From Methanobacteriota archaeon (GTDB taxonomy: Archaea > Halobacteriota > Methanomicrobia > Methanomicrobiales > Methanospirillaceae): 64,000 nucleotides of DNA. This document shows, piece after piece, positions 39,925-43,859 of the stretch. How positions within the stretch are numbered: the stretch's first letter is position 1; each line of letters begins with the position of its first letter. Location: positions 1-64,000 of the forward strand of contig JAKPPV010000026.1 in assembly GCA_029547145.1 (NCBI GenBank), read 5' to 3'. Position numbers and translations under genes: made by a program. The notes beneath the pieces are model-generated. The model saw nothing but the letters and a program-made list of their open reading frames with translations. It was not told where the DNA came from and ran no database searches.

Positions 39925-40380
39925 CCCGTCTTCTTGATCGTGACCGGGGTCCTGAATACGGAAGATCATTCCATTTTCAAAACCCCTCCTGACCGCCTGT
40001 GCCGGCCCGTGATGCGACGATCATGGGGAAAAACAGCTCTCATGGATGAACCATTTCAGAAACCAGAGTGTGCACCGTGATCTCCGTCACGGTTGAGGCG
40101 ACATGTCTTTGTGCCCTCTTCCCTCGATTCAACCGGCCGACAGGATCGGGCGTCGGAGCAGGCGGGTATGGCAGGAGGTCGATGACCGGGGTCACCAGTC
40201 TGCGGGAGACTGGTAACGAAGTCCGGTGGTGCGTCCTGAAGTCTTTTTATAATAGCAGTGTGATTTCATCTATCATTCTCATTCCTCTCCTGTTATACCG
40301 CGCGCGTGGATCCGGGGTGGACGTCGAGACCGGGTATGCCACAGGCTCATCATACAGAAGGTCCAATCTTCCCAGCAACC
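39925..40380. other. Intergenic region with hairpin and TATA box
   Basis: No gene recognised. A perfect 8-bp inverted repeat with 5-base loop (ACCAGTCT, GCGGG, AGACTGGT) lies at 40194-40214. A strong TATA-like sequence CTTTTTATAATA follows at 40243-40254, likely the promoter of the agmatine gene. The hairpin lies just upstream of this promoter, where an activator or repressor could bind as a dimer. Confidence 0.5.
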
Positions 40381-42291
40381 ATGTGTCCACGACCTCTTCG
40401 TCTCGGGCTGGTCCAGTCGCCGGTCGGGAACGACCTGGAGGAGAACCTCTCTCGCACGATCGGGCTCGTGCGGTCGGCCCTCGACCGGGGGGCGCAGGTG
40501 GTCTGCCTGCAGGAACTCTTCCGGATACCGTATATCCCACGTGAACGGGGCGTCGATCCCACCCCCTTCCTGGAGACGGTCCCAGGCGTTTCAACCGACG
40601 CCCTGCAGTCGCTTGCAGAGGAGTACGGCGCCGTGATCATCGTTCCGGTCTTCGAAGCCGGCGACGACGGGGAGCGGTACAACTCTGCGGTCGTCCTGGG
40701 GCCGAACGGCATCCTCCACCCGGTCTATAGAAAGGTGCACGTCCCGCACGATCCTGGCTTCTGGGAACAGGACTACTTCTCTCCCGGGGAACGGTTCGTG
40801 GTCCACGACACCCCGTACTGCCGGCTCGCCGTCCTGATCTGTTACGACCAGTGGTTCCCGGAGGCAGCCCGGTCGGCTGCTCTCCAGGGAGCGGAACTCC
40901 TCCTCTATCCCACCGCGATCGGCCGGGTGACGGGCGGAAACCCGGAGGAGGGTGACTGGCAGGACGCCTGGGAGACGATCCAGCGGGCGCACGCGATCGC
41001 GAACAGCGTGCACCTCGCCGCGGTCAACCGGGTCGGCATCGAGGGTCACCTCCGGTTCTGGGGGGGGTCGTTCGTCGCGGATGCATTCGGTAACATCCTG
41101 GCCCGGGCGGGAGACGGGGAGGAGGTCCTCGTGGTGGAGGTGGACCTCGCCATGAACGCGCGCGTCCGGGAGGGGTGGGGATTTATGGCGAACAGGCGCC
41201 CCGGATCGTATGGCACCCTGATCGCAGGCGCGGCGGGTGACCCCTCCCCCGTCGTGCCGGCGGCGCTCGGGTACCGGATGCCGGCCGAATGGGAGCCTCA
41301 CCGGGCCTGCTGGCTGTCCTGGCCCCATGACCCGCTCACCTTCCCGGACCTTGCGGCGGCGGAGGCGTGTTATGTTGAGATCATCCGCGCGCTCTCCGGT
41401 CACGAGATGGTCGAACTCCTCGTCAGGGACGACGCCATGGAGGGCCGCGTCCGATCCCTGCTCTTCGAGGCAGGTGTCGAACCGGTGAACCTGGCATTCC
41501 ACCGATTCGCCTATGCCGACGTCTGGTTCCGCGACTATGGACCCACGTTCCTCCTCCATCGGGACGGCAGACGACGGATGCTGGTCGGGTGGCACTTCGA
41601 CGCCTGGGGGAAGAAATACGATGCCCTGATGGCCGACGCAGCGGTGCCGGCCCATTTGGCCTCGCTCACCGGCTTACCCCTGACCCGTCCGGGTATCACG
41701 CTGGAGGGCGGTTCGATCGAGGTCAACGGGGCCGGTACCCTGCTCACGACCGAGGAGTGCCTGCTGAACCCGAACCGGAACCCGAATCTCTCGCGCGGCG
41801 AGGTGGAGCGATACCTGCGGGACTTCCTCGGGGTCCGGCATATCTGCTGGCTCGGGAGGGGGATCGCCGGTGACGATACCGATGGCCATATCGATGATAT
41901 TGCGCGCTTCGTCGATGAACGCACGATCCTCCTGGCGGTCGAAGACGACCCGGAGGACCCGAACTGCGAGGTGCTGCAGGATAATCGACGGCGCCTCGAG
42001 TCCGCCGTAGACCAGGACGGGCACCCGTTCTGCGTGGTGGAACTCCCGATGCCGGCACCGGTGGTCGACGCCGATGGAAACCGCCTGCCGGCGAGTTACG
42101 CGAACTTCTACATCGGAAACGGTATCGTGCTCGTGCCTGTCTTCCAGGATCCGAACGACGAGCGGGCGCTCAGGATCATCCGCAGGGCCTTCCCGGGACG
42201 GGAGGTCCGCGGGATCGACTGCAGGGCGCTCGTTGCGGGGCTCGGTGCGATCCACTGCATCAGCCAGCAGGAACCTCTCGGGAGGAGCTGA
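40381..42291 (+). CDS. Fused N-carbamoylputrescine amidase and agmatine deiminase
   Basis: 636-aa protein joining two consecutive enzymes of the agmatine-to-putrescine route. Residues 1-285 are a nitrilase-fold amidase (AguB) with Glu45 in VCLQELFRIPY, Lys118 in YRKVHVPHDPGFWEQ and Cys154 in LICYDQWFPEAAR. Residues from about 298 on are a peptidylarginine-deiminase-like agmatine deiminase (AguA): MPAEWEPHRACWLSWPHD, WFRDYGPTFLL, GDDTDGHIDDIARF and the nucleophile Cys626 in GLGAIHCISQQEP. All catalytic residues of both parts are present. The start is uncertain; GTG 40306 and ATG 40336 are in frame upstream. Expected to release CO2 and two ammonia while making putrescine. Confidence 0.93.
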   Translation: MCPRPLRLGLVQSPVGNDLEENLSRTIGLVRSALDRGAQVVCLQELFRIPYIPRERGVDPTPFLETVPGVSTDALQSLAEEYGAVIIVPVFEAGDDGERYNSAVVLGPNGILHPVYRKVHVPHDPGFWEQDYFSPGERFVVHDTPYCRLAVLICYDQWFPEAARSAALQGAELLLYPTAIGRVTGGNPEEGDWQDAWETIQRAHAIANSVHLAAVNRVGIEGHLRFWGGSFVADAFGNILARAGDGEEVLVVEVDLAMNARVREGWGFMANRRPGSYGTLIAGAAGDPSPVVPAALGYRMPAEWEPHRACWLSWPHDPLTFPDLAAAEACYVEIIRALSGHEMVELLVRDDAMEGRVRSLLFEAGVEPVNLAFHRFAYADVWFRDYGPTFLLHRDGRRRMLVGWHFDAWGKKYDALMADAAVPAHLASLTGLPLTRPGITLEGGSIEVNGAGTLLTTEECLLNPNRNPNLSRGEVERYLRDFLGVRHICWLGRGIAGDDTDGHIDDIARFVDERTILLAVEDDPEDPNCEVLQDNRRRLESAVDQDGHPFCVVELPMPAPVVDADGNRLPASYANFYIGNGIVLVPVFQDPNDERALRIIRRAFPGREVRGIDCRALVAGLGAIHCISQQEPLGRS

Positions 42292-42347: not shown

Positions 42348-43859
42348 ATGACCAGACGGTACTCGTTCGTCGCCCGCGTCCCTGACGAGCCCGGAACCCT
42401 CCACCGGGTCGCCCGTCTCCTGAAAGAACACGCGGTCAATATCAACCGGATCCAGTACGACCACCGGATCGACCGGAACACCGTCTTCTTCGAGGTGACC
42501 GGGTCTGCGGAGGGGTATGCCCGGGTGGTCGAGGAACTTGACCGGATCGGGTATCTTCAGACCGGACTCCCCACCCTCCGCCTCCTCACCCTCTATGTCT
42601 GGCTGCCGCATCGTCCTGGCGGGCTCTTCGAGTTCCTCCAGGAGGTGACCGACGCCCGGACCAACATCGTCGCGATCGACTTCGATGACCGGGGGGTCGC
42701 CCCCGAGCGCGTCGAACTGACCCTGAACCTCTCTGAATCCCTCGCCATCGAGACCCTTTTGGAGCGGTTGAAGGCGCGGTACCGGCTGGAGATCGTGGAA
42801 TATGATCCCACAACCACCCGTCTCGATGACACGATCTATTATGTCAGGCTTGCCGAGCAGATACGCGAACTGATCGGCGGGGCTGACGACCGTTTCCTGC
42901 TCTGTCTTCTCCAGGACATCAACCACGTGGTGCAGGAGCTGAAGAACCGGGGACGCGATCCCGCCGAGACGTTTGAGACCTGCCTGGCGGCCGGCAGGCG
43001 CCTGAGGGAAACGCAGAAAGAGGGATTTTTTGCCGATATCCAGCAGCTTCGGGTCTCGGAGCAGGTCAGGCTCTGGTGCTTTCAGCTGCCGGCCGGAGGG
43101 AATACCTATCTCCTCGATGCCGGTGATGACCTGGTGCTCGTGGACACGGGCTTCGGCTGTTACCACGACGAGATCGTTCGGATGATGCAGGCGCAGGGTA
43201 TCACCGACCTCTCGCGCCTCTCGCGGGTGGTGGTCTCGCATGCCGACGCGGACCATTCCGGGGGGGCCGGTCTGTACTCCGCTACGGCTCTGATGCACCC
43301 GGTGACCCACAGGATCGGATGTGAACTCTCCCGTGCCTACGGCTCCCGGTCCCAGGAGTCCGTCCTCGAGGCCGTGTATACCACCCTCATCAACCTCTTC
43401 TCCCGGTACACGCCCGCCACCGAGATCCGCACCTTCCGGACAGAGCCCCTCGGTTACCGGGAGGGATTTGCCATCATCGACCATCTCCCCGTCGGCGATC
43501 TGGTCTTCGAGGTACTGGAGGGGCATGGTGGTCACATGCACGGGCAGTGCTATCTCTACGAACCCGATCATGGCCTGTTGTTCCCTGCGGACGCCCTGAT
43601 CAACTTTGACAGCCTCACCGACGAACGAAGGAACTACGCCTCCATCGCGGTCTACCTCGTCACCTCGGTCAACGTGGACAGTGACCGGGCCCGGGAAGAA
43701 CGCCAGGCGCTCCTCCGACTCGTGGCGAAGACCGATGCCCGTCTTGCCTCCGTCGGGCGTCGGTGCCTCGTCGCCGGAGGGCACGGGGCCGTCTCTGTCC
43801 TGGAACAGGGTCGTCTCGTCTCGCTGGGAGAACCGGTGCCGTACCGCCCGGGAGGATGA
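42348..43859 (+). CDS. ACT-ACT-metallo-beta-lactamase fusion protein
   Basis: 503-aa cytoplasmic protein of unknown function. Residues 1-70 and about 75-150 are two ACT-type ligand-binding domains (YSFVARVPDEPGTLHRVARLL; LYVWLPHRPGGLFEFLQEV). A helical linker follows to about residue 235. Then comes a metallo-beta-lactamase-fold hydrolase with VDTGFG (D266), SHADADHSGG (H298, D300, D302, H303), HPVTHRIG and GHGGHMHGQCYLY. The His-x-Asp-x-Asp-His pattern keeps the usual metal ligands except that the second His of HxHxDH is Asp. A Shine-Dalgarno-like GGTGGAG precedes ATG 42348. It sits between the agmatine enzyme and the cardiolipin synthase, perhaps with amino-acid control of the hydrolase. 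Confidence 0.82.
   Translation: MTRRYSFVARVPDEPGTLHRVARLLKEHAVNINRIQYDHRIDRNTVFFEVTGSAEGYARVVEELDRIGYLQTGLPTLRLLTLYVWLPHRPGGLFEFLQEVTDARTNIVAIDFDDRGVAPERVELTLNLSESLAIETLLERLKARYRLEIVEYDPTTTRLDDTIYYVRLAEQIRELIGGADDRFLLCLLQDINHVVQELKNRGRDPAETFETCLAAGRRLRETQKEGFFADIQQLRVSEQVRLWCFQLPAGGNTYLLDAGDDLVLVDTGFGCYHDEIVRMMQAQGITDLSRLSRVVVSHADADHSGGAGLYSATALMHPVTHRIGCELSRAYGSRSQESVLEAVYTTLINLFSRYTPATEIRTFRTEPLGYREGFAIIDHLPVGDLVFEVLEGHGGHMHGQCYLYEPDHGLLFPADALINFDSLTDERRNYASIAVYLVTSVNVDSDRAREERQALLRLVAKTDARLASVGRRCLVAGGHGAVSVLEQGRLVSLGEPVPYRPGG

Follow-up and report, generated by a model that had tools for sequence, protein, structure and literature searches.

An ACT-ACT-metallo-β-lactamase protein of methanogens as a candidate ligand-regulated dinuclear metalloenzyme

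What might a metallo-β-lactamase (MBL) domain do when two ACT domains are placed in front of it? The question is raised by one gene of the window, the whole stretch of 64,000 nucleotides analyzed here. The gene (42348..43859, + strand) is an ORF of 503 residues, with its ATG at 42348, a start backed by orthologues, and its stop at 43857-43859. The ORF, Pfam and the orthologues together define its product, P0001, as an ACT-ACT-linker-MBL protein. The Pfam search found ACT (2.6e-12, 46.7 bits against a cut-off of 27) in two stretches and Lactamase_B on residues 250-461 (8.5e-15, 55.6 bits against a cut-off of 22.7), both above their cut-offs, which bears out the architecture proposed in an earlier, sequence-only reading of this DNA. 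Among 35 aligned orthologues (E 0.001), Lactamase_B was present in 35/35, ACT in 27/35 and Thr_dehydrat_C in 13/35; the locus L092 was excluded from alignment A1 because of extra sequence within its reading frame. Both halves are well-known domain types, and their fusion is largely unstudied: literature searches, whose coverage mostly left out subscription papers, found no paper on an ACT-MBL fusion.

The first ACT domain (residues 5-74; 42360..42569, + strand) contains the loop D13-x-P-G16-x-L18 together with the invariant R34 and D42, and is supported by the Pfam match, the strands and helices of a structure model, structural alignment and conservation. The second one (residues 78-153; 42579..42806, + strand), with the loop H88-x-P-G91-x-L93 and the invariant D113, is likewise supported by the model and by conservation, and corresponds to the C-terminal regulatory segment of threonine ammonia-lyase that NCBIfam places on residues 77-143. 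The AlphaFold2 model, built from P0001 and its two nearest relatives (L003 and L004), was poor overall (mean pLDDT 51), with pLDDT values of 57-88 in the ACT blocks, where both stretches were modelled as β-α-β-β-α-β. In VIA-align, the three top-ranking structural neighbours of the ACT model were the ACT domains of homoserine dehydrogenase (Z of 11.2, 75 residues aligned, 2.1 Å), of the regulatory subunit of acetohydroxyacid synthase (Z 10.5, 137 aligned, 7.8 Å) and of a presumed repressor of glycine cleavage (Z 9.8); further down stood SerB2 with bound serine (5jlp; Z 7.6, 139 aligned, rmsd 6.2 Å). The ACT fold, whose absence from a structure model had been set beforehand as a ground for giving up the reading, is therefore present. 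Since ribosomal protein S6 and acylphosphatase were also among the matches, the likeness is to the fold and is no proof of ligand binding. Across the orthologues, the loop glycines are kept in 32/35 (G16) and 34/35 (G91) sequences, and R34, D42 and D113 are kept as well. Judged by the order of its domains, control of the enzyme by an allosteric ligand, as suggested earlier, would be the natural reading of such a protein.

The ACT pair is followed by a linker of about 75 residues (residues 161-235; 42828..43052, + strand), defined by the alignment and by the model, where it is helical, with three predicted helices at a confidence mostly below 50. Its H193 is invariant in 35/35 full-length orthologues, and copies of the gene that lack the ACT domains (see below) keep the linker region but not this residue. 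The MBL domain (residues 242-490; 43071..43817, + strand) is supported by both the Lactamase_B match and PDB profile matches, and the protein belongs to the MBL superfamily by a curated model above its cut-off and by the presence of motifs II-V. Motif II reads H298-A-D300-A-D302-H303 (43239..43256), exactly as numbered in the sequence-only reading, and it is followed by the ligand H396 of motif III (43533..43535), the bridging ligand D415 of motif IV (43590..43592) and the ligand H479 of motif V (43782..43784), all on the + strand. These seven predicted ligands are invariant in 35/35 orthologues and are also kept in five aligned ACT-less copies and in a Methanosphaera protein that is only 24% identical. 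The nearby H393 of 'EGHGGH' is variable, being H in 5/35 orthologues. Motif II is HxDxDH, instead of the usual HxHxDH, in 74/74 distinct copies, a count in which frames were chosen by H-x-[HDE]-x-DH plus a later GGH, so that His or Glu could have shown up. The window genome has 17 Lactamase_B matches, of which one is HxDxDH (P0001), one is HxExDH of the flavodiiron type (L115), three have no recognisable motif and the rest are HxHxDH.

With Asp in place of the second His of motif II, the site would be expected to bind a pair of Fe- or Mn-type metals and not two zincs, one coordinated by H298, D300 and H396, the other by D302, H303 and H479, with D415 as the predicted bridge. Acidic ligand sets are typical of Fe-dependent MBL oxidoreductases (PMC7785958), but a study on ComEC describes an MBL domain whose motifs II and III carry Asp and Asn, respectively, and which depends on Mn2+ and has phosphodiesterase/nuclease activity (PMC8579336). 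The PDB profile matches below 0.01 carry descriptions of hydrolase-type or plain MBL proteins and included no flavodiiron protein. In a profile comparison of 16 MBL proteins of the window genome, whose percentages are approximate because they derive from single sequences, the flavodiiron protein was not the closest and stood among the weaker relatives. On the whole, these comparisons lean toward hydrolases. The MBL half of the model was poor (mean pLDDT 50), so that pockets are not comparable, its structural ranking of MBL relatives (best Z 5.4) was not relied on, and the lack of flavodiiron chains there is no evidence.

These findings led us to propose, with slightly less than even confidence, that P0001 is a soluble, ligand-regulated dinuclear Fe/Mn metalloenzyme, likely a hydrolase of phosphate esters, other esters or lactones, which is gated by its ACT pair in the manner of SerB2. 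The ligand of the ACT pair would be a small metabolite, with amino acids as the likeliest candidates, and the signal would pass through the linker so that the catalytic domain is opened, closed or re-assembled, by analogy with the tandem ACT domains of SerB2; the reaction itself would most likely be hydrolysis of one of the above bonds. In lineages that no longer need the control, the ACT pair would be lost or degraded and the catalytic part retained. SerB2-type phosphoserine phosphatases share with P0001 the two N-terminal ACT domains before a hydrolytic domain, and one of them provides the structural match 5jlp. The catalytic domain of SerB2 is a HAD phosphatase, whereas that of P0001 is an MBL domain (the Pfam scan gave no HAD match), and only the working principle is compared here. 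SerB2 is described as being regulated by L-Ser, which changes its oligomeric state (PMC10564941).

The ACT pair is separable from the catalytic core, as it has been lost in one genus and has eroded in another lineage, with the core kept in both. In genus g27 (family f6), 22/25 genomes matched, and among the 46 matches listed one reached the ACT region, while the others began at or after model position 139. Genomes of this genus each have between one and four ACT-less genes for the catalytic part (L076-L080), and when the DNA surrounding five of these was searched over 16 to 18 kb, no ACT sequence emerged (best E 0.54). In the tree, four ACT-less copies sit within the ACT-bearing family, grouped at 99/99 with the full-length f6 protein L075, which indicates that the ACT pair was lost in g27; these paralogues retain the entire active site. 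Erosion is seen in L062, with mean identities to the other proteins of 35.7 and 28.9% in the ACT domains and 48.9% in the MBL part, and in L063, with 25.2 and 16.1% and 46.1%, respectively. The ACT-less copies offer a natural control for the role of the sensor.

The gene was found in 182/199 genomes of the window's order (match at 1e-8), which is not a matter of chance, with identities of 34-87% among the full-length matches listed. Its retention in 126/132 good-quality genomes of the order suggests that it is probably needed by those cells and probably has an important function. A scan of genome contigs with the single protein as a query matched only two close relatives. A linker-MBL profile matched 65/294 genomes of the phylum at 1e-12; two of these 65 were ordinary HxHxDH proteins, and after their removal the range in the 294-genome set comprised the order and the genera g85 and g96 of family f8. 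Within f8, the gene occurs in 36/111 genomes and 5/14 genera. Pyrrolysyl-tRNA synthetase was present in 7/7 f8 genomes tested, and the enzymes of G333 and G329 best matched 2q7e, which we take to be from Methanosarcina mazei, and its set. From this we infer that f8 is Methanosarcinaceae and that g85 and g96 are Methanosarcina or close to it. As genomes resembling Methanosarcina carry the gene, a methanogen amenable to genetics is available for testing what it does. Weak matches (1e-14 to 1e-5) were also obtained in other families of the phylum; the six examined (L145-L150) were HxHxDH proteins matched over the MBL part, in one case also over the linker, and were not counted as family members.

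Among 72,556 plasmid records, matches were confined to one plasmid in two record versions; a search of 50,697 phage records yielded nothing, and no match was confirmed in viral contigs. A phage or plasmid origin was rejected on these grounds. An assignment to Avs1a or another anti-phage MBL protein was also discarded, the likeness being a local match of 57 residues, with 20.6 bits against a cut-off of 420 in NCBIfam and 16.9 bits in PADLOC.

The gene neighbourhood was compared in the window and in 38 further genomes, 41 stretches in all. At most 9 of these have any given neighbour family in common, and no neighbour shared by the whole ACT-MBL family points to a substrate. A Flavodoxin_5 gene (for example L072 7733-8239) is found upstream of the ACT-MBL gene, with the same orientation, in 22 of the 28 genomes of family f5 compared; for the other six, the 1.5 kb examined may be too short to include it. 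This flavodoxin has no homologue (E 1e-6) in 4/15 genomes tested, all four of which carry the ACT-MBL gene (G064, G156, G300 and G333); a dedicated flavodoxin partner was rejected, the arrangement being confined to f5 and not general. An upstream SAM methyltransferase gene on the same strand was seen in all f2 (8/8) and f4 (4/4) genomes compared, about 1 kb off in G021, and often overlaps the ACT-MBL gene or lies within about 50 bases of it (e.g. L064 7475-8227). It was not accepted as a partner either, being elsewhere or missing in the other genomes searched (a match in 12/18 chosen genomes). The proteasome ATPase (PAN) lies nearby in 9/41 stretches with differing order and strand, and was not taken as functional.

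Several other explanations were weighed against a ligand-gated hydrolase, two of which concern the ACT pair. Arginine, agmatine or a lipid head group had been put forward as its ligand on the strength of the adjacent genes, and the window does show an operon-like arrangement: an AguB-AguA fusion gene, the ACT-MBL gene and a cardiolipin synthase gene follow one another on the same strand, with gaps of 38 and 51 bases when the longest ORFs are taken. The fusion gene (40306-42291), also found in L053, encodes 661 residues that resemble N-carbamoylputrescine amidase (AguB; CN_hydrolase, 33-288) and agmatine deiminase (AguA; PAD_porph, 324-657). However, among the 41 stretches only the window and L053 have the fusion beside the ACT-MBL gene, and the cardiolipin synthase is found there only in the window, L053 (the same record as L003) and L004 (an additional short locus), while G117 (L054), a genome of the same genus, has neither neighbour. 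The genes are therefore unlinked outside the window's genus, an outcome that had been named in advance as speaking against the proposal, and these ligands, left without comparative support, are very improbable. The ACT pair could also be purely structural, serving oligomerisation and binding nothing, in front of a constitutive MBL enzyme. Its loss or erosion without loss of catalytic residues would agree with this, but in most lineages the ACT domains match the MBL part in conservation (mean pairwise identities of 56.6 and 52.4% vs 54.1%), with the loop glycines and the three charged residues named above maintained, and we regard a structural role as improbable.

The main rival concerns the chemistry: P0001 might be a diiron oxidoreductase, or an O2/NO sensor, of the flavodiiron/ODP type without a flavodoxin domain, which would receive electrons from a separate flavodoxin and use the ACT pair as a second input. 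Flavodiiron proteins and ODP share the MBL fold and a motif II carboxylate (HxExDH in flavodiiron proteins), and P0001 and L115 are the only Lactamase_B matches of the window genome to show one. The ODP family (PF19583) scored close to its cut-off of 27.2 bits, with 26.4 bits for P0001 in hmmscan and 30.1 bits in the genome search with in-frame neighbours, and was matched at E 0.001 in 12/35 orthologues. These ODP matches, the Asp of motif II, which could fit an oxidoreductase, and the flavodoxin gene of f5 all count against a hydrolase. On the other side, the ligand is Asp and not Glu in every distinct copy, ACT domains stand in front, no flavodoxin domain was found in P0001 by the Pfam scan or among the families listed for the 35 orthologues, the f5 flavodoxin is dispensed with in some genomes that hold the gene, and flavodiiron proteins are not the closest relatives by profile. 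Membership in the flavodiiron family was rejected because of the motif, the domain content and the profile comparisons. The sequence-only reading had left the choice between hydrolase and oxidoreductase open, citing the occurrence of the fold in flavodiiron proteins; the MBL fold stands, whereas the flavodiiron side comes out weaker in the PDB profiles, the genome profile comparison and the flavodoxin distribution. We thus consider a hydrolase more likely than an oxidoreductase, and the oxidoreductase or sensor itself unlikely. A nuclease or phosphodiesterase under metabolite control that resembles the C-terminal MBL domain of ComEC would be a special case of the proposed hydrolase. RNase J among the PDB profile matches would suit it, and ComEC shares the motif II Asp and needs Mn2+ (PMC8579336). 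That same source gives Asn at motif III, where the ACT-MBL family has His in 35/35 orthologues, which speaks against membership in the ComEC type; moreover, P0001 carries ACT domains, and its Pfam scan revealed no channel and no DNA- or RNA-binding domain. We consider such an enzyme distinctly unlikely.

In the widest frame for a ligand-gated enzyme, the family might represent a new class, namely an amino-acid-gated dinuclear Fe/Mn MBL protein with a strict HxDxDH motif, near-universal in one methanogen order and probably passed to Methanosarcina, whose reaction would be new to MBL enzymes (possibly that of a nutrient-controlled phosphodiesterase, a second-messenger hydrolase or a redox sensor tied to amino-acid status). 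We hold this to be rather unlikely.

The single plasmid match is pNP174 of Methanosphaera sp. ISO3-F5. It encodes WP_323737597.1, annotated only as 'MBL fold metallo-hydrolase', a full-length relative that aligns over residues 3-446 at 24% identity, has the ACT pair as well and carries the motif HADMDH. Second copies with HxDMDH and 28% identity occur in two g13 genomes (G178 and G442). In the tree, L079 and the Methanosphaera protein, the sole members of the HxDMDH group included, were grouped at 100/100, both on long branches, which suggests that these two and the second copies of G178 and G442 form a second, divergent subfamily. The HxDMDH group as a whole (L105 9998-11419, L151, L152 and L079) comprises the Methanosphaera plasmid protein and additional copies present in a small number of the order's genomes. 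The ACT-MBL gene was also found disrupted: several stops interrupt it in G497, and in G448 and G486 its frame is split, all cases in which assembly errors are possible. In the nearly complete genome G002, a 5'-only remnant matching residues 1-66 was found (L153, G002:C6:57500-60500).
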